The notes beneath the pieces are model-generated. The model was not told the DNA's origin, ran no database searches, and saw nothing but the letters and a program-made list of their open reading frames with translations. From Deltaproteobacteria bacterium (GTDB taxonomy: Bacteria; Desulfobacterota; Desulfomonilia; Desulfomonilales; Desulfomonilaceae): a stretch of DNA of 36,483 bases. Both the position numbers and the translations under genes were made by a program. Location: contig JAMCYH010000029.1 of the NCBI GenBank assembly GCA_023474025.1, forward strand, positions 1 through 36,483, in the 5' to 3' direction. Below are positions 8,124 to 33,945 of the stretch, piece after piece (the stretch's first letter is position 1; each line of letters begins with the position of its first letter).

Positions 8124-8996
8124 CTATCTGCCTTCACCTGATTTTTCACCAGGCCCAAAAATGATGCTGGATGGTTTGTTCTTGATCATTCTGGTGAAAT
8201 CAATGAGATTATCGGCGCTCCTGTCCAATTTCTGGGTCAACAAACTAATGTTGTTGTCAGTTCTTCGTATCATTCTGTCCGCATTCCTCATTGTTTCCGT
8301 ACTGACCTGGAGGAACTCATTGGTTTTATCTATAGTTTTGGTCAAAGACTTTCCCAGTTGGACTTTGGACAAATCGTCGTTAATTTTTCGGGCTGTTTCC
8401 TTTATTTCACGAATTGCGTCTGCAGTATCGGCTCCGATGGAATCCACTTTCGAATTCGACAGGATCTCGTCCAACTTGGACGAAACTTTTAAGAAATGAT
8501 TTGAGATTCTTTCTATATCCAGCGCTTTGAGTTTCTGGAATACGTTTTCCAGGGCGGCTCCGATTTCTTTTATATCAGAAGAGTACGTAGGTATGACCCT
8601 ATATCGGGGCTTAAAATCGAGTTCAATCGGCTCTTTATATTGGTCCTTGCTGAAAGAATCCATTTCCAGATACTTTAGACCTGTAAGTCCCAGCAAGTTC
8701 ATTTTGACCCCCAGGTCATCAGTAACTTTAAAATTTCTATTAAGCCCCATTACAACCTCAATTAATCTGCCGTCAGGAGCCATACGAATTTTTTTCACAC
8801 GCCCCACAGGCACACCTCTAAATTTAACAGGGCTGTCTGACTCCAGACCCTGCACACTCTCAGAAAAATATGCCACTACAGTCTGTGAACCTTCAAAATA
8901 CCTTGAAGCCCCCAACCAGATTAGAATGGTGACAGTCAACATAAAGACCAATATCAGAAACAGACCTACTTTAAATTTTGTTGACTGCTTATACAT
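8124..8996 (-). CDS. mlaD: MCE-domain lipid-transport protein (MlaD-like)
   Basis: The product has 290 residues. A short basic N-terminus precedes one membrane helix (GLFLILVFMLTVTILIWLG), then the MCE domain with SVQGLESDSPVKFRGVPVGR and a following beta-rich segment. The C-terminal half is a long predicted helix or coiled coil rich in charged residues (residues about 150-270). MlaD-type proteins sit in the inner membrane, face the periplasm as hexamers and carry phospholipids between membranes. I chose the ATG at 8996 because GGAG lies six bases upstream; ATG 9008 and TTG 9011 are in frame. It is the third gene of the mlaE-mlaF-mlaD run; no MlaC-like periplasmic carrier is present. Confidence 0.92.
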   Translation of the reverse strand: MYKQSTKFKVGLFLILVFMLTVTILIWLGASRYFEGSQTVVAYFSESVQGLESDSPVKFRGVPVGRVKKIRMAPDGRLIEVVMGLNRNFKVTDDLGVKMNLLGLTGLKYLEMDSFSKDQYKEPIELDFKPRYRVIPTYSSDIKEIGAALENVFQKLKALDIERISNHFLKVSSKLDEILSNSKVDSIGADTADAIREIKETARKINDDLSKVQLGKSLTKTIDKTNEFLQVSTETMRNADRMIRRTDNNISLLTQKLDRSADNLIDFTRMIKNKPSSIIFGPGEKSGEGR

Positions 8997-9140
8997 TTCA
9001 ATCTCCATCAAACCAATTAAGCGTCAAAACTCCAGTGGCGCGTTTTGGCATCATTGACACATGAAATTGACAGAAGTCAAATACACTTGGACCATTTGAA
9101 ATTCCAATTTATTTTCGACAAACACAAAAAGACGTTTGTT

Positions 9141-9902
9141 TTAGCCTCCGTGTCCCTGAAAGAAATTACGTACTCGTTGATCCGTAGAACAATCCCTGAG
9201 TTCTTGGGGTGGGCCTTGAGCTATTACCGTTTTGTCTACCGGATCCAGTAAAATAGCGCGGTCGGCAATTGCGAACGCGCTCCTGAGTTCATGAGTTATA
9301 ACCACAATTGTTGTTCTAATTGATGAATTTATATTGAGTATCGTTTGATCAAGCTCAGCGCTGGTAAGCGGGTCTAGACCGGTCGAAGGCTCATCAAAAA
9401 AAAGAATTTCAGGGTCCAGGGCCAGGGCCCTTGCTAAGGCCGCCCTTTTCTTCATACCTCCACTCAGTTCATCAGGCAACTTCCTGGCTGAATCACTCAA
9501 ACCAACCAGGTCCAATTTCAAATAAACCAGTTCTTTTATGACATCTTTAGATAAAGAGGTTAACTGTCGCAATGGCAAAGCGACGTTATCGGCTATCGTC
9601 ATTGAGCTGAAAAGCGCCCCACCCTGAAAGAGAACACCCAGTTTTCGTAAAATACCTAATTGCGGGTTTTCAGAGATCGGCTCCATTTTCGAGGCGCCAT
9701 AATAAATTTCCCCCTTTAATGGTTTAAGCAAGCCCACCATGACTTTAAAGAGAGTTGTTTTCCCGCATCCTGAACGACCCATTATAGCAAAAACTTCCCC
9801 TTTAGGGATCTCAAATGAAATATCACGAATCACTATCTGTTCAGCATAGCCCGCTGAAATGTTACGAGCCGAAATTGCCGAGACTGATTGTTTTTCCGCC
9901 AA
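9141..9902 (-). CDS. mlaF: ABC transporter ATPase, MlaF-like
   Basis: The product of 253 residues is the ATPase of the Mla-type lipid transporter. Visible are Walker A GRSGCGKTT (42-50), Q-loop LFQGGALF, signature LSGGM (146-150) followed by KKRAALARAL, Walker B ILFFDEPSTGLDP (167 onward) and the switch histidine in VVITHEL (H204). The FQGGALF form of the Q-loop region is typical of MlaF. It lies between mlaE and mlaD on the same strand. The start is TTG at 9902 behind a G-rich site (GGGGCGG). Confidence 0.95.
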   Translation of the reverse strand: MAEKQSVSAISARNISAGYAEQIVIRDISFEIPKGEVFAIMGRSGCGKTTLFKVMVGLLKPLKGEIYYGASKMEPISENPQLGILRKLGVLFQGGALFSSMTIADNVALPLRQLTSLSKDVIKELVYLKLDLVGLSDSARKLPDELSGGMKKRAALARALALDPEILFFDEPSTGLDPLTSAELDQTILNINSSIRTTIVVITHELRSAFAIADRAILLDPVDKTVIAQGPPQELRDCSTDQRVRNFFQGHGG

Positions 9903-9953
9903 AGCCGCCCCTTAAAGCTTAGACATCACACGTTAAACAATGTGTTTAAAAAA

Positions 9954-11090
9954 CTAAAATGACCAGATTCTTGGGAAATAGTAAAACAGAACAGCGAACA
10001 CCGCGTTTGTTACTGTCAAAACGAATATACACGTTACTACAGCAGATGTAGTAGCTGCCCCGACACTTTCAGCCCCGCCCCTAACCTGAAAACCCCTGAG
10101 ACAACCAATACCTGCAATTTGGATCCCAAAAATGAAGCTTTTTGTCAGCCCTTTTAATACATCACTTATTTCCAAAACTTTTTTCACCTGATTGAAATAA
10201 GTAGCGGGTGTGACATCCAGGGAAAATCCTGCCACAAGGCATCCACCTATTATTCCCATAACATCAGCAAGCAGTGTCAGGCATGGCGCTGCAAGGGCTA
10301 CAGCGATGATTCTAGGACAAACAAGGTACAAGACAGGATCTATTCCCAACACCCGTAAAGCGTCGATTTCTTCTGAAACCTGCATAGAGCCTATGTGCGC
10401 GGCATATCCGGCCCCCGAACGCCCAGACATGATCAGAGCTGTCAGTAGAGGCCCCATCTCAAGACAAATGGAAAGACTTACCAAATCGGCCACAAATATA
10501 TTGGCCCCAAATTTTCTCAATTGTATGGCAGCCTGGAACGCAAGTATCGCCCCCATGAGCAGGCTCAGAATCACTACTATAGGTACAGCGTCAACCCCGG
10601 CCTTTTCAAAAATTCTGGTGAACCCGTCCCATTTGATAGAAGCTGAACGGCGAAATCCCGTCACAAACGCTTCAATTACGGCTCCCAGAAAGGTTATTAT
10701 ATCGTAGGCGCTCTGCTTTAGAACCAGTAGCCCCTGACCGACCTGTTCAGAGAAATCCGGTTCATCTATTCCCTCCAGTATGCTTGTACTTTCATTGATC
10801 TGGCATTGTTTCGTTTCGAGAAAACGTTTTGCCTCGGCAGGAACATTTGACAAGGTCACCGTATTCCTGAGCATGTTTGAATTGCGGACAAAGTTTCGAA
10901 TTACAGCTATTCCTGAGCCGTCCAGATAGTTTATTCCAACAAGGTCTAGCTCCATGTTTTTCAGAGGTTGAGACTCGAGTATTCTTGTTAGTTCATCGTT
11001 TACAAAAGCCGCGTTTTCTACCGAAATACTTCCTTCAATTTCGATAAGTAGTTCATCAAAGGACTTTTGTTTGGATTTAATTTGAAACAT
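9954..11090 (-). CDS. mlaE: MlaE-like permease with fused N-terminal STAS (MlaB-like) domain
   Basis: The product has 378 residues, about 120 more than a stand-alone MlaE. Residues 1 to about 110 look like a STAS domain (ELDLVGINYLDGSGIAVIRN, LSNVPAEAKRFLE), the fold of MlaB. Residues about 125-375 are the permease: FEKAGVDAVPIVVILSLLMG, QAAIQLRKFGANIFVADLVS, MSGRSGAGYAAHIGSMQVSE, EEIDALRVLGIDP and several hydrophobic helices. It should form the inner-membrane channel of the phospholipid transporter with MlaF and MlaD. It is the first gene of the mla run, 63 bases after the dinG-like gene. The ribosome site at ATG 11090 is poor. Confidence 0.93.
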   Translation of the reverse strand: MFQIKSKQKSFDELLIEIEGSISVENAAFVNDELTRILESQPLKNMELDLVGINYLDGSGIAVIRNFVRNSNMLRNTVTLSNVPAEAKRFLETKQCQINESTSILEGIDEPDFSEQVGQGLLVLKQSAYDIITFLGAVIEAFVTGFRRSASIKWDGFTRIFEKAGVDAVPIVVILSLLMGAILAFQAAIQLRKFGANIFVADLVSLSICLEMGPLLTALIMSGRSGAGYAAHIGSMQVSEEIDALRVLGIDPVLYLVCPRIIAVALAAPCLTLLADVMGIIGGCLVAGFSLDVTPATYFNQVKKVLEISDVLKGLTKSFIFGIQIAGIGCLRGFQVRGGAESVGAATTSAVVTCIFVLTVTNAVFAVLFYYFPRIWSF

Positions 11091-13146: not shown

Positions 13147-14574
13147 TCAATTTTGTACGTTTTTACTGATGATTGAGCCGGATTTTCTCGCTTTATTATA
13201 TCTCGCAGCCAGTTTTAGGACGTTCGGAGCCCATTCCCTCGTCCCCAAAGCGTGTAGATGTAAGTATGTTCCCAGAGCGTTGTTTCGGAAAATACCATCA
13301 TTTTTCCCCCTCGGGTCCGTGCTTATTAAGACCTTAAAAGCATACAAGTTTTGATCGGGTTTGCTCGAGCATATGTATGAATAGTGAAATTCGTGTCCAG
13401 TAAGCACGGACCCGAGGGGGAAAAATGGATTAGCGGTGGTTACTTCAACTGTCATATAACCATGCCCTTGAGGCGTTCTTTCCAGAACTGCGCTTACGTC
13501 AAAGACCCCAACCATGGGAAATGTCGCATGGTCGATAGTCAGTTCTCTAGCGAGGTACATCAATCCCCCACATTCAGCATAAACCGGGAGCCCGGATTCA
13601 ACTGCTTCATGAAGCGATTTCTTAAATATAGTGTTGTTTGCCAACCGCTCCGCGTGCGTTTCTGGAAAGCCGCCGCCTATATAAAGAGCATCGACTCCGG
13701 GAAAAGGTTTTGCGTCAAGCGCGGTAATTTCAATTAACCTGGCTCCAGTAGCCTGCAAGGCGTCCAAGTTTTCCGGATAGTAGAATTGAAAAGCGGAATC
13801 TCTTAGTACCCCTATCTTTAGATCGGCGTGCGTGGGATTAACTATTCCCTCATTCCCGATCAAATCCTCGCAGGCAAAGGGGGACGCCGAACTCGCTATC
13901 TCTACCAGCCTGTCAAGGTCCACTGATTGTTCGGCAACCCGTGCTGATTGAACTATTAAATCATTGGCGCTACCGTGCTCAAAGAGCGGCAAAAGCCCGA
14001 GATGCCTTTGGGGGAAATTGTCCAGCGACAGTTTGTGAACACACCCAATAACGGGAATCGAACAATAATCCTCTATGGACTGACGTAAGGTTTTTTCATG
14101 TCTTGCCCCAGAGACCTTGTTCAGTATCACGGCTTTTATCAATATCGAAGGGTCTAGAAGTTTGCATCCGAGCACCAAGGCCGCCGCTGTGCGAGTCATT
14201 TTCGACGCGTCAACCACGAGCACGACAGGACAATCCAAAAGCTTTGCGAGTTCGGCCGAACTATACTCTCCCGACGCGTTCACACCATCGTATAAGCCTC
14301 TGTTACCCTCGATTATAGCCATGTTCGAGCCGGAGGAACCGACACAAAATGAGCTCTTGATAGTGATTGCGTCAAAAAGATAAGAATCAAGGTTGTGACA
14401 TTTACTTTGCGCAGCCTTGCCTAACCACCCGGCGTCGATATAATCGGGTCCCTTTTTGAACGTGGCTATAGACAACCCCCGATCTCTTAAAGCGGCTGTT
14501 ATTCCAAGAGTGAGCAGTGTTTTTCCAGCGCCGCCTCTAAGGGCGGCAACCATGAACCTCGGGGATTTTTGCAT
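13147..14574 (-). CDS. Cobyrinate a,c-diamide synthase family (CbiA/DsrN-type), second tandem copy
   Basis: The product has 475 residues: an N-terminal ATP-binding P-loop domain (LRGGAGKT, 12-19; KKGPDYIDAGWL; EGNRGLYDGV) and a C-terminal class I glutaminase-like domain with nucleophile C335 in YAECGGLMYLA and GGGFPETHAERL. The family amidates two acetate side chains of a tetrapyrrole using glutamine and ATP. It is a close paralogue of the gene just upstream and overlaps its 3' end by 38 bases, so the two are co-translated. Next to dsrAB the likely substrate is siroheme (DsrN role), but cobyrinate for B12 is equally possible. The substrate cannot be read from sequence. Confidence 0.9.
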   Translation of the reverse strand: MQKSPRFMVAALRGGAGKTLLTLGITAALRDRGLSIATFKKGPDYIDAGWLGKAAQSKCHNLDSYLFDAITIKSSFCVGSSGSNMAIIEGNRGLYDGVNASGEYSSAELAKLLDCPVVLVVDASKMTRTAAALVLGCKLLDPSILIKAVILNKVSGARHEKTLRQSIEDYCSIPVIGCVHKLSLDNFPQRHLGLLPLFEHGSANDLIVQSARVAEQSVDLDRLVEIASSASPFACEDLIGNEGIVNPTHADLKIGVLRDSAFQFYYPENLDALQATGARLIEITALDAKPFPGVDALYIGGGFPETHAERLANNTIFKKSLHEAVESGLPVYAECGGLMYLARELTIDHATFPMVGVFDVSAVLERTPQGHGYMTVEVTTANPFFPLGSVLTGHEFHYSYICSSKPDQNLYAFKVLISTDPRGKNDGIFRNNALGTYLHLHALGTREWAPNVLKLAARYNKARKSGSIISKNVQN

Positions 14575-15985
14575 TTCTCGTGTTTTCGTTATGAAGTATT
14601 TTGGTAAGTTGAAATTCTCGAGCCTTTCGAATCATCGCATCAGCCCAACCTGGTTCCCCCAAAGCATGAACGTGTGTGTATAACCCGAGCGTATTTTTCA
14701 CGCTTAGGCCATCATGATTGCCATCAATACCATGTCCTCTCAAAACGTCAAATGTCTGGAGAGAATTCTTATTGTCATGAATTACCATTGTGGAATAGTG
14801 GAATTCATGCCCTTTTAATGTTTTCCCCAACTTGAAGAAAGGGTTGTTAAATCTGGCTTTCAGTTCGACGTATCCTAATCCTTGAGGTTTTCTGTTCAGT
14901 ATGGAGCTCGCAGAGAAAGCGCCAACCATGGGAAATTTTTTGTGATCTACCACCAAATCTCGAGCCAGGAACATGAAACCACCACATTCAGCATAAACCG
15001 GGCCACCTGATTCGACAAAAGACTTGACTGAAGCCAGAAACGGCCTGTTATCCGAAAGACGATCAGCATTTGTTTCAGGAAATCCACCGCCAATATACAG
15101 AGCGTCAATATCGGGTAGGGATTTTGATTCTAGAGCGCTGATTTCAGTTACGTAGGCGCCACGGGATACGAGGGCTTCTATATTCTCAGGATAGTAGAAA
15201 TGAAAAGCCGAATCACGAAGGATCCCTATTGTCACACGTGGTGAACAGCAAAGATCATTTTGGTTTTTGAGCGAGTCTAAAATCGGGCGCAGGGTTTTGG
15301 CTGTTTGCGCCACCTTTATAATTTGATCAAGTTCGAGATTATTTTCAGCTATAATTTGCGCTTCATCTATAAACTTCACTGACGCAGGATGTTCATGTAT
15401 AGGTAACAATCCGAGATGCCTCTGCGGAAAATTTTTCAATGACATGCCGGGCATAACTCCAAGAACTGGAATATCACAAATGCGTTCAATAGATTGTCGG
15501 ACGACTTTCTCGTGTCGTAAACCTTTTACACGGTTAAGAATTATGCCCGCCAGTGGAAGTTCCGGATCAAACTGAAGGCATCCTTTAACCAGGGCGGCTG
15601 CTGTTCCTGTCATTTTTACGCAATCGATTATAAGGATTACCGGACTTGAGAGTAACTTTGCCAGTTCAGCGCTGCTATACGACCCCTGATTGTCGACCCC
15701 GTCAAAAAGGCCTCTGTTACCTTCTACGACAGCGATCCCCGAACCTTCTGACCGCATCATAAACGATCCCAGGACAATGTCCCGATGACACAGATATTGG
15801 TCCAGATTGTAGCACGGTCGTTTTGCGCCCATACTAAGCCAGCCGGAATCTATATAATCCGGGCCTTTTTTAAAAACGCTTGGGCACAACCCTCGTCTTC
15901 GCAAGGCTGCAACTAACCCTACAGTCACCAGGGTCTTACCGGATCCACCTTTTAGAGCGGCTATAAGAAGTCGAGGAATGTTCAT
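14537..15985 (-). CDS. Cobyrinate a,c-diamide synthase family (CbiA/DsrN-type), first tandem copy
   Basis: The product of 482 residues has the same architecture as its downstream neighbour: P-loop LKGGSGKT (11-18), KKGPDYIDSGWL, EGNRGLFDGVDNQGSYSSAE, then an amidotransferase domain with GGGFPETNADRL and nucleophile C334 in YAECGGFMFLA. It should carry out glutamine- and ATP-dependent amidation of tetrapyrrole carboxylates. Both copies share FPQRHLGLLP, LRDSAFxFYYPEN and GHEFHYS, which points to an old tandem duplication. It lies 34 bases after an unknown gene that is divergent from dsrA. In sulfate reducers and sulfur oxidisers such a gene beside dsr is named dsrN; which copy has that role is open. 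Confidence 0.9.
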   Translation of the reverse strand: MNIPRLLIAALKGGSGKTLVTVGLVAALRRRGLCPSVFKKGPDYIDSGWLSMGAKRPCYNLDQYLCHRDIVLGSFMMRSEGSGIAVVEGNRGLFDGVDNQGSYSSAELAKLLSSPVILIIDCVKMTGTAAALVKGCLQFDPELPLAGIILNRVKGLRHEKVVRQSIERICDIPVLGVMPGMSLKNFPQRHLGLLPIHEHPASVKFIDEAQIIAENNLELDQIIKVAQTAKTLRPILDSLKNQNDLCCSPRVTIGILRDSAFHFYYPENIEALVSRGAYVTEISALESKSLPDIDALYIGGGFPETNADRLSDNRPFLASVKSFVESGGPVYAECGGFMFLARDLVVDHKKFPMVGAFSASSILNRKPQGLGYVELKARFNNPFFKLGKTLKGHEFHYSTMVIHDNKNSLQTFDVLRGHGIDGNHDGLSVKNTLGLYTHVHALGEPGWADAMIRKAREFQLTKILHNENTRNAKIPEVHGCRP

Positions 15986-16019: not shown

Positions 16020-17195
16020 TTAGTCTTTGGTCATCAATTCCTGACAAGCCTGGTATACATCAAAAACATGATCTACCAAATTGCTTTTGATTGTTCCAAA
16101 GTCCGGAGCTCTGCTGTCATAGGATTCGATTGTGTCGATGAGCAGTTTAGCCCAGTCTTGCACACTCAATGCGCCCAAAGTTTTAATAAATTTTTTCTGA
16201 AAATCATAGTTACCATCACTCTTGACCCTTTTTGCTGTCATGGATTTCAGAAATCCCGCCAAAACCGCTTTGACAAATTTTCGACCCTTCAACCAGGTGA
16301 ATTGTCCAGTGCCGTCTACCCTGTCGATTCGAGCTCGGATGGTGAGATTGGCCAAAAATACCAATAGCGCATGAGTCAAATTTTCGTCAGAATAATCCGG
16401 AAATGAAACACGGGGTTGGTATTGCCTTACCGATATCAACTTTAAATCAACAACGGGGTCCAGTTGGGCAATAAAATCACCTGCAGCGTGATGCCATGGA
16501 TATATCTCCTGAAATGTCTCCAGATTAAAAAAAGAGCTTAAAACATAAGCTACTTGTTCCATGAGTTCAACAGCAATCGATTCTGGAAATTCAAAAAAAC
16601 CATGGTCTGTATCCCACAAACTAAAAAGAGGACTGTCATCTTTGACTGAATCGGTAACGTGAAATTCGTAATATCCCCTAAACCACTCAGCAAGAAAAAT
16701 CCGGTTTGGCTGTTCTGTACATGATGAACTGGGGTCTCCGCTTGAATTAATAAAAAATACCTGGGGTAAATATTTTTCCGTGAATTTGTGCCCAAGAAAC
16801 TTTAGTAAATCATAATCCTGCCTGATCCTGGACAATCCCCGATCTGTAAGAGCCACATTTGCGGCGAACCAAAACTCACCGTCAATCGTAATAACTCTCA
16901 CAGAGGCGGGGAAATAATCAGCGCCACGTTTTTCGGCTACCAAATCTATTAATTTTATTGACGCGTTGTAGCCGGCTCTCTGAGAAACCATGTAATAGAG
17001 ACCTTCAAGGTTTTCCAAGACGAAGGTTTTTATGGCCTCCATATATCGTAAATAGGTAATAGGATGTGAGTCTGACGAACAAAATTCGTCCCTTGACAGG
17101 ACTATGGGACGCAGGAGGTCTCTCGAATCCATGACCCCGGGATTACCATTGGGAGCATAATTCATGAATCTAAATCTAGGCTCGTTGAATGGCAT
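16020..17195 (-). CDS. Conserved-looking protein of unknown function, weakly kinase-like, divergent from dsrA
   Basis: The product has 391 residues, no signal peptide and no clear membrane helix. I do not recognise a named family. Some segments are arranged like the aminoglycoside-phosphotransferase/protein-kinase fold: RIRQDYDLLKFLGHKFTEKY (N-lobe helix), FLAEWFRGYYEFHVT (hinge-like), YPWHHAAGDFIAQ (catalytic-loop-like HxxxxD) and VDLKLISVRQYQP (metal-loop position). This is a weak pattern-based inference. A good AAGGA site precedes the ATG at 17195. It lies 34 bases before the first cbiA/dsrN gene on the same strand and is divergent from dsrA, so a link to sulfite reductase or its cofactor is suggested by position only. 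Confidence 0.75.
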   Translation of the reverse strand: MPFNEPRFRFMNYAPNGNPGVMDSRDLLRPIVLSRDEFCSSDSHPITYLRYMEAIKTFVLENLEGLYYMVSQRAGYNASIKLIDLVAEKRGADYFPASVRVITIDGEFWFAANVALTDRGLSRIRQDYDLLKFLGHKFTEKYLPQVFFINSSGDPSSSCTEQPNRIFLAEWFRGYYEFHVTDSVKDDSPLFSLWDTDHGFFEFPESIAVELMEQVAYVLSSFFNLETFQEIYPWHHAAGDFIAQLDPVVDLKLISVRQYQPRVSFPDYSDENLTHALLVFLANLTIRARIDRVDGTGQFTWLKGRKFVKAVLAGFLKSMTAKRVKSDGNYDFQKKFIKTLGALSVQDWAKLLIDTIESYDSRAPDFGTIKSNLVDHVFDVYQACQELMTKD

Positions 17196-17517
17196 GTGCT
17201 GTTCCTTATAAAACGAAGACTACCCTGTTTAGCGTGTCATCACAAGCTCAAGCCGACATAATTCTAGAAGATGTTATTTACTAAAACTCTTGGATTTTTT
17301 CCTTGACTTGACAGATACATTTGCATTAAGTTTTTAAGAATCTTCAATTCGGTGGCCTTTTTCATTCATGCTCAATAAATTCGCCTGTTTGACTAAATTC
17401 TAATCAGCTCAACAAGCTTGAAAAGTCGGGTAGACCGGCGTTTTTTGTTTCTGGCCACTGGAATAGATCACGATCACTCGAATCGCAGAAGACCTAAGTA
17501 GAGAGGAGGAACCTTTA
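17196..17517. promoter_or_regulatory. Divergent intergenic region carrying the dsr leader and promoter
   Basis: This 322-bp gap has no credible gene. It must hold the promoter of dsrABD on the plus strand and that of the kinase-like/cbiA run on the minus strand. Two overlapping -35-like boxes, TTGACT (17303-17308) and TTGACA (17308-17313), are followed by an A+T-rich stretch with a poor -10 candidate TTTAAG (17333-17338) at a long 19-base spacing, so the promoter call is tentative. A terminator-like hairpin follows at 17421-17446, and the dsrA ribosome site GAGGAGG lies close to the end. Confidence 0.5.
17421..17446 (+). terminator. Terminator-like hairpin (possible attenuator) in the dsrA leader
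   Basis: gtcgg (17425-17429) pairs with ccggc (17435-17439) around a 5-base loop, with one G-U pair. The stem can extend by AAAA against the following T run past a bulged G. Six T residues follow at 17441-17446. This is the shape of an intrinsic terminator, yet it sits about 72 bases before the dsrA start with no plus-strand gene upstream. Attenuation of dsr transcription is one reading; a chance structure is the other. Confidence 0.4.
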
Positions 17518-18807
17518 ATGGGAAAACACAATACCCCTATGCTTGATGAATTAGAAAAGGGGCCGTGGCCTAGCTTTGTGTCTGATATCAAGCAGCAGGC
17601 GGCAAAAGGAAAACACATTCTCAAAGACGCTCCTGAAGACTTGTTGGGAGTAATGGAATTATCCTACGAGGACAAGGTCACGCACTGGAAGCATGGTGGT
17701 ATCGTTGGCGTATTCGGTTACGGCGGTGGCATCATTGGACGCTATTGTGACCAACCAAAGATGTTCCCCGGTGTGGCTCATTTCCACACCGTCCGAGTAA
17801 ACCAACCATCGAGTAAATTTTATACTACGAAATTCCTGAGAAGCCTTTGTGACCTATGGGAACATCATGGCAGCGGGCTCACCAACATGCACGGTTCCAC
17901 TGGTGATATCGTTTTCCTCGGCACAACAACTGATCACCTTGAGCCTCTATTCTTTGAAATGACTCATGAGTTGAATCAGGACCTCGGGGGATCCGGATCA
18001 AACCTCAGAACTCCTGAATGCTGTCTGGGGCAGTCCCGATGTGAATTCGCATGCTATGACACCCAGGAAGCCTGCGATAATCTAACTCATGAATATCAGG
18101 ACGAACTTCATCGCCCGGCGTTTCCTTACAAGTTCAAATTCAAGTTTGACGGTTGTCCTAACGGTTGCGTGGCGTCTATCGCCCGTTCCGACATGTCTTT
18201 TATTGGAACATGGAGAGATGACATTCGTATAGATCAGGCTGCGGTAAAGGCTTATGTAGGTGGGGAATTGGCGCCTAACGCCGGAGCTTATTCAGGTAGA
18301 GATTGGGGAAAATTCGACATTCAAAAAGAAGTTATTGACCTTTGCCCAACCGGTTGTATTCGTTGGGATGGATCAAAGCTCGAAATCAACAACAAGGAAT
18401 GCGTCCGCTGTATGCATTGCCTAAATGTTATGCCTCGAGCTCTGAGAAAAGGTCTGGATACTGGCGCGTCCATTCTGTTCGGCGCAAAAGCCCCTATCCT
18501 TGAAGGCGCCCAAATGGCCACACTGACGGTTCCTTTCATGAAAATGGAATCCCCCTTTGATGAAGCAAAAGAGCTTGTTGAGAAAGTTTGGGATTGGTGG
18601 ATGGAAGAAGGCAAAAACAGGGAGCGTCTTGGTGAATTGATTCAAAGGAAATCCTTCCAGGAATTTCTCAGAATCTGCGAACTTGATCCTGATCCAAGAA
18701 TGGTTGATGAGCCAAGATCCAATCCATACATTTTCTGGAAAGAGGAAGAAGTTGAGGGCGGATGGACCCGAGACATCGAAGCTTTCCGAGCGAAACATCA
18801 GAGGTAA
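17518..18807 (+). CDS. dsrA: Dissimilatory sulfite reductase alpha subunit
   Basis: The product of 429 residues is DsrA, which with DsrB reduces sulfite in the last step of sulfate respiration, in the cytoplasm. The siroheme-[4Fe-4S] motif Cx5C...Cx3C is present (C169/C175 in CLGQSRC, C213/C217 in CPNGC). The inserted ferredoxin domain has CPTGC (276-280) and CVRCMHC (295-301). Family blocks such as [20 protein letters not shown] and [18 protein letters not shown] are intact. GAGGAGG lies about eight bases before the ATG, a very strong ribosome site. It is followed by dsrB after 15 bases. The reductive bacterial type is indicated by the adjacent dsrD. Confidence 0.99.
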
Positions 18808-18822
18808 AGGGAGGTCAACAAG

Positions 18823-19941
18823 ATGCCTTACGATCCCAGCGAACCGTTGAAAGATAGAATTACTGATATCGGCCCCAGACATTATGGGGAATTCCTACCA
18901 CCTGTCGTCCAAAAGAACAAAGGGAAATGGCTTTATCACGAGATTCCGCAACCCGGAGTACTCGTTCACGTGGCTGAATCTGGAGACAAGCTTTGCTCCG
19001 TCCGAGTTGGCGGTTGCCGTTTGATGAGTGTCGAGCACCTCAAAGAAATCTGTGACATAGCCGACAAATATTGTGAAGGCTACCTGAGGTTCACCACCAG
19101 AAACAATATTGAGTTCCTAGTGTCTGATGAATCTAAGGTTAAGCCTCTAATCGACGATCTTAAAAGCCGCAAGTTCCCTGGTGGTTCAAACAAGTTCCCT
19201 ATTGGTGGAACCGGCGCAGGCGTGACCAACATAGTCCATACCCAGGGATGGGCGCATTGCCATACACCTGCCATTGACGCTTCCGGTGTCGTAAAAGCGG
19301 TCATGGATGGAATTTATGAGGAATTCGGCCACATGAGGCTACCGGCCCCTGTGCGCGTGTCTCTAGCCTGCTGCCTCAACATGTGTGGCGCAGTCCATTG
19401 TTCTGACATAGCTATCCTCGGGATCCATCGAAAACCGCCCATGGTGGACGGTGAGTGGATCGATAAACTCTGCGAGTTGCCTCTTGCCATCGCCGCATGT
19501 CCTACCGGAGCCATCAAACCTGCAAAAACAGCGGATGGCAAAAAATCATTGGAAGTTAACGCAGAACGATGCATGTTCTGTGGAAACTGCTACACCATGT
19601 GCGCCGCAATGCCGTTGGCAGATGAGGTCGGGAGTGGAATAGCTATTCTGGTTGGTGGAAAATTATCCAACCGTATCAGTAAGCCTAAGTTCTCGAAGGT
19701 TGTTATCCCGTTTATTCCCAACGAGCCGCCAAGATGGCCTTCAACCGTGGCCGCAGTCAAGAACATTCTAGATGTTTACTCCAAGGACGCCAACAAGTAT
19801 GAGAGACTTGGCGACTGGGCCGAAAGGATTGGATGGGAAAGGTTCTTTGAGAAAACCAATATTCCATTCACCCATCACCTGATTGACGATTACCGTTTTG
19901 CTTATACCACGTGGCGGCAGTCTACCCAGTTTAAGTTTTAG
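18823..19941 (+). CDS. dsrB: Dissimilatory sulfite reductase beta subunit
   Basis: The product of 372 residues is DsrB, partner of DsrA in the alpha2beta2 sulfite reductase. Siroheme-cluster cysteines are visible in WAHCHTPA (C146) and [14 protein letters not shown] (C183/C184, C188). The ferredoxin domain has CPTGAIKP (C226) and [11 protein letters not shown] (250-260). Other signatures are [13 protein letters not shown] and [19 protein letters not shown] precedes the ATG. It is 15 bases after dsrA and 20 bases before dsrD, so the three genes form one operon. Confidence 0.99.
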
Positions 19942-19945
19942 TCGG

Positions 19946-19963
19946 TGGAAAGGAGCTTTCCAT
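19946..19963 (+). promoter_or_regulatory. Hairpin covering the dsrD ribosome binding site and start codon
   Basis: ggaaag (19947-19952) pairs perfectly with ctttcc (19956-19961) around GAG. The stem can extend by T19946 with A19962, the first base of the dsrD start codon, and by a G-U pair. The AAGGAG ribosome site (19950-19955) is thus partly in the stem and loop. Translating ribosomes leaving dsrB, whose stop ends at 19941, would be expected to influence it, which could couple or limit dsrD translation. Confidence 0.5.
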
Positions 19964-20204
19964 GACCGAGGAAGAAGCGAAAAAATTAATTCTTGAGACG
20001 CTGCAAGGCAAATCAAAGGCCAAGTCTAAATTTTATCTCAAAGATTTCTACGCGATGATTCCTGATATGAAGAATCGGGAAGTAAAAAACATTGTGAACA
20101 GGATGGTTTCCGAGGGGTTACTGGAATATTGGTCCAGCGGAAGCACAACTTTAATCGGTTTGAAAGGAATGGGCAAACAGCACGGTGAGGAAGACGAAGC
20201 CTAA
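19962..20204 (+). CDS. dsrD: DsrD, small winged-helix partner of DsrAB
   Basis: The product of 80 residues matches DsrD in size and sequence (KSKFYLKDFYAMIPDMKNRE, VKNIVNRMVSEGLLEYWSSG). DsrD has a winged-helix fold and is known to act as an allosteric activator of DsrAB rather than as a DNA-binding protein; it is found in organisms that run the pathway in the reductive direction. The C-terminus is acidic (GEEDEA). It follows dsrB after 20 bases and ends the operon before a strong terminator. Confidence 0.97.
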   Translation: MTEEEAKKLILETLQGKSKAKSKFYLKDFYAMIPDMKNREVKNIVNRMVSEGLLEYWSSGSTTLIGLKGMGKQHGEEDEA

Positions 20205-29138: not shown

Positions 29139-30461
29139 CTACAACTTTGCTACCAAATCTACGATTGAGGACGGGTCCTTACCAAATAGTCTTATGAGCG
29201 GGACTTTTCCGACAGATCCTTTATCAAAAATGGCGTCAGGCACCTTACCGAGTTCTTCCATGACATCCTGGACTCCCCAAGCCAAGGTACTACCTTCTTC
29301 ACTTTGCAAGTCAGGTGGTGTCCTGCTTCTGTCAAATTCGGCAACCTGAAATCCTAACGAGCGGATTCTCTTCACCAGAGTTTTGGAATAACCTATTGTC
29401 ATTGCAGCCCGGCGATCAGGATCGTATTCCATAGCAGCCAGAACAAGATGATGAATCTGACGGGAAGCCCCGAATCGTGCGCTTTTTAAGGTATCGATCG
29501 TATTGATCAATCGGACTATTCTTCCTGGAAATGAAGCCACATCGTTGACGGTCTCCGCATACGGGATCGCATAAGCCAGATTGGACTGCACTTCGGGTAT
29601 AAGGTGGCCGATATTGAGGCGTTTCAGTCTCTCCAAAGCCTTGTCCAATTCCTCTATTACACGGGTTCTGGCGGTCTCCCGAGCTATGGAGGCATAATGG
29701 TTCAACGGCCCTATTCCCTTGCCAATACCCAATGAAAATCTCAATGCCCTGTAAAGATACCTCTTGGCCTTATCAATGCACTCCATTACAGGTAACCCTC
29801 TTGCCAGGAATGTTGATATCGCTGCGGACAAAGTACAGCCGGTACCGTGGGTATGTCGGGTCCGAACTCGTGACGTCTCGAATTCATAGTAATGCTGCCC
29901 GTCATGGAGAACATCTACAGGAGCGTCTTTCAAATGCCCTCCTTTGACCAGTACGAACTTGGGACCCATTTTTTGTAATTTTTTGGCAGCTTTCTTCATG
30001 TCATCGATGTTTTTTATTTCTTTCCCAAAAAAAATTTCGGCTTCAGGGATATTGGGGGTGAGCAAATAGCAAATAGGAAACAGTTTAGCGACCATTGCTT
30101 CCTGGCCTGATTCATCCAGCAAAGTTGAGTTTGTTTTGGATTTCATTACAGGGTCAACTACCAGCTTTGCAACCTTATGTGTTACCAACTGGTTTGCGAC
30201 GGCTTTTACTATTGCTCCATTTCCAAGCATTCCGGTCTTTACACAATCAGCGCCTATATCACTAAGCACAGCATCAATTTGTCTGGCCACTAACTCCGGA
30301 TCTACGAGCTTGACAGAGTGCGCGCCCAACGTGTTCTGAGCGGTAATGGCGGTGATAGCGCTCAGGCCATACCCCCCTAGCGATAATATGGTTTTGAGGT
30401 CCGCTTGTATCCCCGCTCCTCCCCCCGAATCCGATCCGGCTATTGAAAGGATCTTGTTCAT
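29139..30461 (-). CDS. thiD: Fused hydroxymethylpyrimidine (phosphate) kinase ThiD and thiamine-phosphate synthase ThiN
   Basis: The product of 440 residues joins two thiamine-synthesis enzymes. Residues 1 to about 262 are ThiD (ILSIAGSDSGGGAGIQADLK; anion-hole segment HTHGTGCTLSAAI), which phosphorylates HMP and HMP-phosphate. Residues about 270-440 are a ThiN domain (GRIVRLINTIDTLKSARFGA, MEYDPDRRAAMTIGYS), a thiamine-phosphate synthase not related to ThiE. AGGGA stands seven bases before the ATG at 30461; a longer frame to 30542 has no support. The 5' half lies in the duplicated 1,853-bp unit, and this is the intact copy. I found no TPP riboswitch motif upstream. Confidence 0.95.
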   Translation of the reverse strand: MNKILSIAGSDSGGGAGIQADLKTILSLGGYGLSAITAITAQNTLGAHSVKLVDPELVARQIDAVLSDIGADCVKTGMLGNGAIVKAVANQLVTHKVAKLVVDPVMKSKTNSTLLDESGQEAMVAKLFPICYLLTPNIPEAEIFFGKEIKNIDDMKKAAKKLQKMGPKFVLVKGGHLKDAPVDVLHDGQHYYEFETSRVRTRHTHGTGCTLSAAISTFLARGLPVMECIDKAKRYLYRALRFSLGIGKGIGPLNHYASIARETARTRVIEELDKALERLKRLNIGHLIPEVQSNLAYAIPYAETVNDVASFPGRIVRLINTIDTLKSARFGASRQIHHLVLAAMEYDPDRRAAMTIGYSKTLVKRIRSLGFQVAEFDRSRTPPDLQSEEGSTLAWGVQDVMEELGKVPDAIFDKGSVGKVPLIRLFGKDPSSIVDLVAKL

Positions 30462-31651
30462 TTCGTTCCCTAACTTTGCGTCCCTTATTTTTTTAGTTAA
30501 TTGGATGATTGAAATTCTATCAACTGAAGGCAGTTTTCCCAATAAAACAATACAAAATTTTTCTTGAGGTTTGGGAAATAAAATTTACTTTGATAGTATA
30601 TCATGGTTTGATGAATCAAAGGAACAATCTCGGAGATTTAGATTTGAATGAAAATTTAATAAACAAAATGAAACCGGCGCCTATACTTGTCGTTGGAGAT
30701 GTGATGGTGGATGAATATGTTGTCGGCGAAGTTGAAAGAATTTCCCCTGAATCTCCCGTGCCGGTTTTGTTGGCTAAAGACAGACACAGACGCCTTGGAG
30801 GCGCTGGGAACGTTGTCAGAAACGTCGTTTCCATGGGTGGGAATGTGGCTCTGTTTGCCACTATCGGGGGTGACGCCGCAGGAGAATGGTTTAAGAAACA
30901 TTGCGGTGAAATTGGCGTGGACACTTTCTGGCTAAAAACGGAGAGATCAAGGCCAACTACTATCAAAACTAGAATAGTCGCCAGGAATCAACAGATAGTA
31001 AGAATTGACGAAGAATATGTTGGACAAATAGCTTCAGAGATTGAAAAAAAAGTCCTTGACGATATCAGATCAGTTACTCCTCAGGTAAAAGCAGTGATAG
31101 TCTCTGATTACGGGAAAGGCTTTCTGTCTGATTTAATTCTCAACAATCTGTTTGCGATGGCTCATTCCGAAGGTGTTCCATCTCTAGTGGATCCCAAAGG
31201 GTTTGATTTTACTAGATATCGTGGCGCAACTTACGTGACACCGAATATAAGGGAAGCGTCTTTGGCCTCTGGCGTAGAAATAAAAAATGCCAACACTCTT
31301 GAAAAGGCCGGAAGGATACTGCTAGAGCAGACTCAATCCGAAGGTGTAGTCGTTACCCGTGGGAAAGACGGAATTACTCTCATCACCAGGAACAAAATCC
31401 AGGATTTTCCTGTAAAACCTGTTGAGATCGTTGATGTTACAGGCGCAGGGGACACTGTAATCGCAACCCTTGCTCTTGCCGTAGCCAGTGGACTGTCAAT
31501 AGAAGAAGCCGCCCAGATGGCCAACCTGGCTGCTTCGCTGGTCGTTGCCCGTTTTGGAGCGGCTTCCGTGACTCTCGAAGAGATGCTTAATTCCCTCCGC
31601 AACTGGCCCCTTGGTCGAAAGATAATTGCCCGAGACGAGGTAGAACGGACC
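29797..31651. repeat. Tandem duplication, left copy (1,853-bp unit)
   Basis: This stretch is repeated directly at 31650-33504 with an offset of exactly 1,853 bases. All positions that I compared, and all translated segments, are identical. The unit starts inside thiD-thiN, spans the divergent thiD/hldE promoter region, and ends in the linker of hldE. The copies abut with a two-base CC overlap at 31650-31651. No terminal inverted repeats or transposase are seen. Confidence 0.95.
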
Positions 31652-31669
31652 TCTTGCCAGGAATGTTGA
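30611..31669 (+). CDS. Truncated HldE: heptose-7-phosphate kinase domain only (duplicated copy)
   Basis: The product of 352 residues equals the first 347 residues of the full HldE downstream, then ends in five new residues (SCQEC) where the duplication junction at 31651 cuts the gene. The whole ribokinase-type kinase domain is kept (VVGDVMVDEYVVGEVERISP, GGAGNVVRNVVSMGG, DVTGAGDTVIATLAL). The nucleotidyltransferase domain is lost. The product could still make heptose-1,7-bisphosphate, as monofunctional HldA does. It has its own copy of the promoter region, so it may be expressed. Whether it folds and is kept by selection is unknown. The start is placed as in the full gene. Confidence 0.8.
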   Translation: MNQRNNLGDLDLNENLINKMKPAPILVVGDVMVDEYVVGEVERISPESPVPVLLAKDRHRRLGGAGNVVRNVVSMGGNVALFATIGGDAAGEWFKKHCGEIGVDTFWLKTERSRPTTIKTRIVARNQQIVRIDEEYVGQIASEIEKKVLDDIRSVTPQVKAVIVSDYGKGFLSDLILNNLFAMAHSEGVPSLVDPKGFDFTRYRGATYVTPNIREASLASGVEIKNANTLEKAGRILLEQTQSEGVVVTRGKDGITLITRNKIQDFPVKPVEIVDVTGAGDTVIATLALAVASGLSIEEAAQMANLAASLVVARFGAASVTLEEMLNSLRNWPLGRKIIARDEVERTSCQEC

Positions 31670-32314
31670 TATCGCTGCGGACAAAGTACAGCCGGTACCG
31701 TGGGTATGTCGGGTCCGAACTCGTGACGTCTCGAATTCATAGTAATGCTGCCCGTCATGGAGAACATCTACAGGAGCGTCTTTCAAATGCCCTCCTTTGA
31801 CCAGTACGAACTTGGGACCCATTTTTTGTAATTTTTTGGCAGCTTTCTTCATGTCATCGATGTTTTTTATTTCTTTCCCAAAAAAAATTTCGGCTTCAGG
31901 GATATTGGGGGTGAGCAAATAGCAAATAGGAAACAGTTTAGCGACCATTGCTTCCTGGCCTGATTCATCCAGCAAAGTTGAGTTTGTTTTGGATTTCATT
32001 ACAGGGTCAACTACCAGCTTTGCAACCTTATGTGTTACCAACTGGTTTGCGACGGCTTTTACTATTGCTCCATTTCCAAGCATTCCGGTCTTTACACAAT
32101 CAGCGCCTATATCACTAAGCACAGCATCAATTTGTCTGGCCACTAACTCCGGATCTACGAGCTTGACAGAGTGCGCGCCCAACGTGTTCTGAGCGGTAAT
32201 GGCGGTGATAGCGCTCAGGCCATACCCCCCTAGCGATAATATGGTTTTGAGGTCCGCTTGTATCCCCGCTCCTCCCCCCGAATCCGATCCGGCTATTGAA
32301 AGGATCTTGTTCAT
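31496..32314 (-). pseudogene. Truncated thiD running into antisense hldE sequence
   Basis: The first 222 residues are identical to ThiD of the intact thiD-thiN gene, up to STFLARG. At the junction (31650) the frame passes into the reverse strand of the truncated hldE and adds about 50 unrelated residues before a stop at 31496. The C-terminal part of the kinase fold and all of ThiN are missing, so activity is unlikely although the anion-hole segment HTHGTGCT remains. It is convergent with, and overlaps, the truncated hldE by 174 bases. It keeps the AGGGA site and the ATG at 32314. Confidence 0.85.
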
Positions 32315-33504
32315 TTCGTTCCCTAACTTTGCGTCCCTTATTTTTTTAGTTAATTGGATGATTGAAATTCTATCAACTGAAGGCAGTTTTCCCAATAAAA
32401 CAATACAAAATTTTTCTTGAGGTTTGGGAAATAAAATTTACTTTGATAGTATATCATGGTTTGATGAATCAAAGGAACAATCTCGGAGATTTAGATTTGA
32501 ATGAAAATTTAATAAACAAAATGAAACCGGCGCCTATACTTGTCGTTGGAGATGTGATGGTGGATGAATATGTTGTCGGCGAAGTTGAAAGAATTTCCCC
32601 TGAATCTCCCGTGCCGGTTTTGTTGGCTAAAGACAGACACAGACGCCTTGGAGGCGCTGGGAACGTTGTCAGAAACGTCGTTTCCATGGGTGGGAATGTG
32701 GCTCTGTTTGCCACTATCGGGGGTGACGCCGCAGGAGAATGGTTTAAGAAACATTGCGGTGAAATTGGCGTGGACACTTTCTGGCTAAAAACGGAGAGAT
32801 CAAGGCCAACTACTATCAAAACTAGAATAGTCGCCAGGAATCAACAGATAGTAAGAATTGACGAAGAATATGTTGGACAAATAGCTTCAGAGATTGAAAA
32901 AAAAGTCCTTGACGATATCAGATCAGTTACTCCTCAGGTAAAAGCAGTGATAGTCTCTGATTACGGGAAAGGCTTTCTGTCTGATTTAATTCTCAACAAT
33001 CTGTTTGCGATGGCTCATTCCGAAGGTGTTCCATCTCTAGTGGATCCCAAAGGGTTTGATTTTACTAGATATCGTGGCGCAACTTACGTGACACCGAATA
33101 TAAGGGAAGCGTCTTTGGCCTCTGGCGTAGAAATAAAAAATGCCAACACTCTTGAAAAGGCCGGAAGGATACTGCTAGAGCAGACTCAATCCGAAGGTGT
33201 AGTCGTTACCCGTGGGAAAGACGGAATTACTCTCATCACCAGGAACAAAATCCAGGATTTTCCTGTAAAACCTGTTGAGATCGTTGATGTTACAGGCGCA
33301 GGGGACACTGTAATCGCAACCCTTGCTCTTGCCGTAGCCAGTGGACTGTCAATAGAAGAAGCCGCCCAGATGGCCAACCTGGCTGCTTCGCTGGTCGTTG
33401 CCCGTTTTGGAGCGGCTTCCGTGACTCTCGAAGAGATGCTTAATTCCCTCCGCAACTGGCCCCTTGGTCGAAAGATAATTGCCCGAGACGAGGTAGAACG
33501 GACC
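31650..33504. repeat. Tandem duplication, right copy (1,853-bp unit)
   Basis: This is the second copy of 29797-31651 in the same orientation. It contributes the truncated thiD and the 5' two thirds of the intact hldE. The lack of visible differences means the event is very recent, or the sequence is an assembly artefact. The two-base junction overlap fits illegitimate recombination rather than recombination between pre-existing long repeats. Confidence 0.95.
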
Positions 33505-33945
33505 ATAAGAAATCACAGACTGCAGGGTCAGTCTATAGTATTCACTAACGGCTGTTTCGACCTTTTCCATGTAGGACATCTCGAGTTACTCCGTAAGGCC
33601 TCTACGTTTGGAGACGTATTGATAGTGGCTGTGAACTCCGACAAATCCGTGCAAAAAATCAAAGGGGACCAACGACCAATAGTCTGTGAAAAAGATAGGT
33701 TGGAACTTGTGTCAGCCTTAAATTTTGTTGATCATGTGGTTGTTTTCGATGAAAATACTCCTTACAGCCTTATAAAAGAGATAAAACCGGACATTCTGGT
33801 TAAGGGAGAGGACTGGAAAGGAAAAAGAGTAATCGGGGAAGATATTGTAAACGAACGAGGGGGTAGAGTTCAATTTGTAGAACTTGTCAGCGGAGTTTCT
33901 ACCAGTTCCATAATAGAAAAAATTGTTACTAAAAACTCCGGATAG
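32464..33945 (+). CDS. hldE: Bifunctional heptose-7-phosphate kinase / heptose-1-phosphate nucleotidyltransferase
   Basis: The product of 493 residues supplies activated heptose for the LPS inner core. The N-terminal kinase (residues about 17-335; VVGDVMVDEYVV, RISPESPVPVLL, DVTGAGDT) phosphorylates the heptose at C1. The C-terminal adenylyltransferase (about 355-490) has the nucleotidyl-transfer signature GCFDLFHVGHLELLRKA and VKGEDW. Between the two steps a GmhB phosphatase is needed; none is in the window. The open frame reaches back to 32362 but the ATG at 32464 fits the family length best; ATG 32521 is another option. No strong ribosome site is visible at either. Its 5' part is in the duplicated unit. 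Confidence 0.95.
   Translation: MNQRNNLGDLDLNENLINKMKPAPILVVGDVMVDEYVVGEVERISPESPVPVLLAKDRHRRLGGAGNVVRNVVSMGGNVALFATIGGDAAGEWFKKHCGEIGVDTFWLKTERSRPTTIKTRIVARNQQIVRIDEEYVGQIASEIEKKVLDDIRSVTPQVKAVIVSDYGKGFLSDLILNNLFAMAHSEGVPSLVDPKGFDFTRYRGATYVTPNIREASLASGVEIKNANTLEKAGRILLEQTQSEGVVVTRGKDGITLITRNKIQDFPVKPVEIVDVTGAGDTVIATLALAVASGLSIEEAAQMANLAASLVVARFGAASVTLEEMLNSLRNWPLGRKIIARDEVERTIRNHRLQGQSIVFTNGCFDLFHVGHLELLRKASTFGDVLIVAVNSDKSVQKIKGDQRPIVCEKDRLELVSALNFVDHVVVFDENTPYSLIKEIKPDILVKGEDWKGKRVIGEDIVNERGGRVQFVELVSGVSTSSIIEKIVTKNSG

Follow-up and report, generated by a model that had tools for sequence, protein, structure and literature searches.

What does a gene of no named family do between the genes of the dissimilatory sulfite reductase DsrAB and a pair of amidase genes? 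DsrAB drives sulfate reduction worldwide, and to our knowledge little is known of its assembly and control beyond DsrN and DsrD. In the window, the whole stretch of 36,483 nucleotides of Deltaproteobacteria DNA that was analysed, the gene (here called X) is divergent from dsrA across 322 bp, and its stop codon is followed after 34 nt by the first of two overlapping genes of the cbiA/cobB type. This is the arrangement that a first-pass annotation had described, a 391-residue frame divergent from dsrA and leading a cbiA/dsrN-type pair. The locus reads as follows:

13147..14574, minus strand: CobB/CbiA/DsrN-type amidase 2 (TIGR00379), overlapping amidase 1
14537..15985, minus strand: CobB/CbiA/DsrN-type amidase 1 (TIGR00379), 34 nt downstream of X
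16020..17195, minus strand: gene X, for a 391-aa soluble protein of a dsrAB-linked family, with a predicted atypical kinase-like fold
17196..17517, no strand assigned: divergent intergenic region of X and dsrA, where both promoters are presumed to lie
17202..17207, minus strand: AAGGAA, likely ribosome-binding site of X
17518..18807, plus strand: dsrA (TIGR02064, 614.8 bits), starting at 17518
18823..19941, plus strand: dsrB, by its position after dsrA and by tblastn to other dsrB loci
19962..20204, plus strand: dsrD (PF08679)

One of the two tandem amidase genes is presumably DsrN; the two (13147-15985) are about 51% identical to each other, and the pair also recurs across the window's family. 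A promoter consensus scan of the intergenic region did no better than it did on shuffled sequences, and an Rfam search gave no match. Elsewhere in the window, an exact 300-nt direct repeat (29797-30096 and 31650-31949, 1853 nt apart) is accompanied by two PfkB-type ORFs (30509-31669 and 32362-33945) spaced like the repeat copies, an arrangement that resembles either a tandem duplication of the segment or an artefact of assembly.

The X frame (16020-17195, minus strand) begins with ATG, and the AAGGAA read directly from the sequence lies 6 nt before it. The 391-residue protein has no strongly hydrophobic stretch, and the family has no conserved cysteine. Relatives were confirmed at 346 encoding places in the GTDB species collection (the best 80 of the 346 were viewed), and comparison of X with a 62%-identical homologue gave a pN of 0.23 against a saturated pS of 0.78, indicating purifying selection. 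These results confirm that X is a real, conserved gene and not a chance open reading frame. Apparent X fusion proteins in three genomes (G291, G234 and G394, with 600-aa frames in the first two) were rejected: each is an ordinary X preceded by GC-rich sequence that is read through.

Searches of Pfam, NCBIfam, PHROGs, PADLOC and the PDB sequences found no family that X matches, in agreement with the first-pass annotation, which had seen no named family, and the same remote sequence searches returned nothing meaningful for 81 homologues. That annotation had also placed X near the aminoglycoside phosphotransferases (APH). Membership in that family was not borne out by Pfam: X had no match to PF01636 at the curated cut-off, and PF01636 was absent among the matches listed for the 81 homologues. 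When the X family was aligned by hhalign in local mode to 12 target families, APH came out first (probability 20%, P 0.001, over the alpha-C/beta4 region), and Pkinase, at 0.7%, scored no better than the decoys. A literature search whose reach took in few subscription journals found no description of X.

The kinase-like fold proposed for X is supported by structure prediction. AlphaFold2 with an 81-row alignment gave a model with pLDDT 90.6 and pTM 0.90, and a second run, queried with another member of the family, reached 92.4 and 0.91; the two models are not fully independent, because their alignments have most sequences in common. In both, the order of elements is beta1-3, alpha-C, beta4-5, hinge, helix, beta6, loop, beta7-9 and a helical lobe. 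Foldseek against the PDB returned only kinases and pseudokinases among the top 50 for each model, with probabilities of 0.98-1.00 and a best E of about 3e-5. The TM-scores of 0.25-0.48 lie below 0.5, suggesting that the kinase relation is distant. By its predicted bilobal topology, X probably belongs to the protein-kinase-like fold superfamily as a remote member. It resembles NahK, which is of the APH type, and the pseudokinases MLKL, JAK2 JH2 and CASK in the order of strands and helices, but differs from all four in these low TM-scores and in lacking any family-level sequence match, and it differs from known kinases in carrying a beta-hairpin where alpha-D would be.

We then placed the conserved residues of X on the kinase fold, in a register inferred from the secondary structure of the predicted models. 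Conservation was taken from the 81-row set and checked on about 70 more rows, duplicates among them. The segments concerned are:

16905..16934, minus strand: EKRGADYFPA, residues 88-97, beta1/beta2 loop at the glycine-loop position (EKHGxxYHPA in the family)
16785..16844, minus strand: alpha-C-like helix, residues 118-137, with the conserved E/D127, within the region aligned to APH by hhalign
16659..16688, minus strand: EWFRGYYEFH, residues 170-179, hinge and start of the beta-hairpin that replaces alpha-D, with invariant W171, E177 and H179
16473..16499, minus strand: PWHHAAGDF, residues 233-241, at the catalytic-loop (HRDxKPxN) position in the inferred register
16419..16442, minus strand: KLISVRQY, residues 252-259, at the beta8/DFG position, with invariant R257
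16305..16331, minus strand: RIDRVDGTG, residues 289-297, with invariant R289, D291 and G295

Thirteen residues are invariant in the 81 rows (K89, G91, W171, E177, H179, W194, W234, G239, D240, R257, R289, D291 and G295) and almost invariant in the further rows as well; one distant member outside the set has R at 89. PWHHAAGDF, singled out earlier as a possible catalytic loop, does appear to occupy that position. Within it, the nearly invariant H235 would stand at the catalytic Asp position (R or S replaces it in a few of the about 70 further rows) and the invariant D240 at the kinase Asn position. The alpha-C Glu position seems to be kept, with Glu in 69 and Asp in 12 of the 81 rows at residue 127. 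The other positions that mark an active kinase appear to be lost: the DFG metal-binding Asp is S, T or A at 255, and the beta3 Lys is N113 in 77 of 81 rows, the invariant lysine being instead K89 in the beta1-beta2 loop. With the catalytic Asp, DFG Asp and beta3 Lys replaced and another set of residues near-invariant, ordinary phosphotransfer by X is unlikely, so that the kinase chemistry implied by the earlier proposal probably does not hold. The pattern suggests a rebuilt active site with an invariant set of its own, by which X would differ from known kinases.

A canonical small-molecule kinase (APH/choline-kinase type) with siroheme or one of its precursors as substrate is thus a highly improbable reading of X. 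The predicted fold, the rank of APH among the hhalign targets and the place of X at the head of dsrN-type genes in the window speak for such a kinase; the three replaced positions and the absence of an APH match in Pfam speak against it. A neighbourhood survey found no tetrapyrrole gene recurring near X except the general dsr partner dsrN, and the synthesis of siroheme amide has no phosphorylated step that we know of, which also counts against it.

An enzyme with a kinase fold and non-canonical chemistry could act on a protein of the Dsr pathway such as DsrC, DsrD, DsrAB or a TPR partner; it might transfer AMP, for instance, or carry out phosphotransfer by way of a lysine that has moved. Such an enzyme would explain why the near-invariant residues are polar and seem to lie at cleft positions (K89 in the glycine loop, E/D127 in alpha-C, D240 at the Mg-binding Asn position and R257 at DFG). 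Precedents for altered chemistry on kinase folds exist: SidJ is a glutamylase (PMC6858067), and SelO and others are kinase-domain AMPylases (PMC12409994). We nevertheless regard this reading as unlikely, given that H235 is replaced in a few members and that the register was inferred without coordinates.

Does the family follow dsrAB? Among 394 Desulfobacterota genomes, with dsrA counted above the profile cut-off, X was found in 64 and dsrA in 193. DsrA was encoded in 63 of the 64 X-bearing genomes, as against 130 of the 330 without X (Fisher p = 3e-21, in a test that ignores kinship). In Nitrospirota X was found in 4 of 148 genomes, all four with dsrA (one copy truncated at contig ends). X therefore occurs with dsrAB. 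The reverse does not hold: about a third of dsrA-bearing Desulfobacterota have X and two-thirds lack it, showing that X is optional, and a strict requirement of DsrAB for X was rejected. In the exceptional X-bearing genome, G132 (99% complete), dsrA and dsrB were both searched for and neither was found; X there adjoins a gene whose match to radical SAM is weak. The dsrD search returned not a single match anywhere, hence none in G132 or G244 either.

On the DsrA tree the presence of X needs 13 changes, compared with 38 in shuffles, suggesting that X is clustered on the tree with several losses or gains. Tree distances of X and DsrA were correlated (r = 0.71; permutation maximum 0.25), in part as expected from common descent. 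The end branches of X are about five times as long as those of DsrA, which fits accessory status but also a different client.

X is also encoded beside dsrAB: of the 57 genomes listed, 42 have X no more than 6 kb from dsrA, with exceptions in several families and some lineages in which X is far from dsrA. Homologues thus co-occur and cluster with dsrAB, and the dsr link suggested from the position of X in one genome is upheld. Loci with X and dsrA show three geometries: co-directional in 47, with X upstream of dsrA and a gap mostly of 200-500 nt; divergent in 14, as in the window; and convergent in 15. A regulator of dsr transcription, also raised earlier, would suit the divergent arrangement of the window's family, but X is co-directional or convergent at the other loci, and profile searches with X and its homologues matched no DNA-binding domain. 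Nothing positive points to this role, and we give it very little credence.

A TPR gene lies directly upstream of X in 50 loci, with a median gap of 61 nt, and several loci remote from dsrA also keep the two side by side; in the window's own family it is missing from the X locus. Genes for a CxxCxxCC protein and a HEAT/zinc-ribbon protein (DVU0298_fam) also recur near X. Like X, these TPR, HEAT and CxxCxxCC genes are recurring, unexplained dsr neighbours, often adjoining it; unlike X, their products have other folds and are found in X-less dsr loci too. The DVU0298_fam HEAT proteins were rejected as a marker of X, being common in X-negative genomes. In G190 (L238) the TPR-dsrA order is retained and X is missing, which, together with the X-less two-thirds, suggests that DsrAB in general does not need X.

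Could the link be mainly one of ancestry, X being an old sulfate-reducer gene that does not work on DsrAB? Away from dsrAB, L138, L139, L141 and L142 keep either TPR with X or all four genes, the TPR, HEAT and CxxCxxCC genes accompanying X in the first two; G132 carries X without dsrAB, and the Fisher test ignores kinship. On the other side stand the three geometries, the adjacency that most lineages keep and that extends to a second phylum, and the near-total co-occurrence, which make chance retention of X near dsrAB hard to sustain. We find this explanation rather doubtful.

Because its relatives are found almost only in DsrAB carriers and usually beside the dsrAB genes, X is probably an optional helper of DsrAB. 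Our preferred reading, which we hold at about even confidence, is an accessory factor that serves the assembly or the activity of DsrAB, with a kinase-like fold and a TPR-protein partner. X and the TPR protein that most lineages encode beside it would most likely form a complex; the old kinase cleft of X might hold a nucleotide or some other ligand, and such binding might help DsrAB assemble or set its activity. A bolder version, to which we allow a small but real chance, sees in X a repurposed enzyme of kinase fold whose active site is new and which, together with a TPR protein as dedicated scaffold, would modify DsrAB or assemble it. An accessory X would resemble DsrD and DsrN, whose genes also lie beside dsrAB in sulfate reducers and which are not part of the catalytic core; it has no sequence relation to either and is optional, occurring in roughly one in three of the sampled Desulfobacterota that carry dsrA.

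If the bolder version is true, dissimilatory sulfite reduction would include a maturation or control step not yet described, present in about one third of the sulfate-reducing Desulfobacterota. Conserved, undescribed, almost confined to genomes with dsrAB and usually adjacent to it, X offers a direct genetic handle on DsrAB assembly and control, and it would enlarge the kinase fold by a family whose invariant site is unusual.

Several gene arrangements were seen around X in passing. In L149 (4182-7785), L164 and L140 a dsrA-dsrB-dsrD-TPR-CxxCxxCC run is convergent with HEAT/zinc-ribbon-X; we found no description of this gene set, which is partly present where X is missing. In L141 (G232) the TPR-X pair (8777-10959) adjoins two MamK-like actin genes, 31 kb from dsrAB, possibly a magnetosome-type cluster. 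In Desulfobacterales (L036:7927-8973, L041:5371-6159, L031:15472-15921), dapA-type and CxxCxxCC genes recur just upstream of TPR-X-dsrAB, and a class III cytochrome c gene lies just downstream of the same runs.
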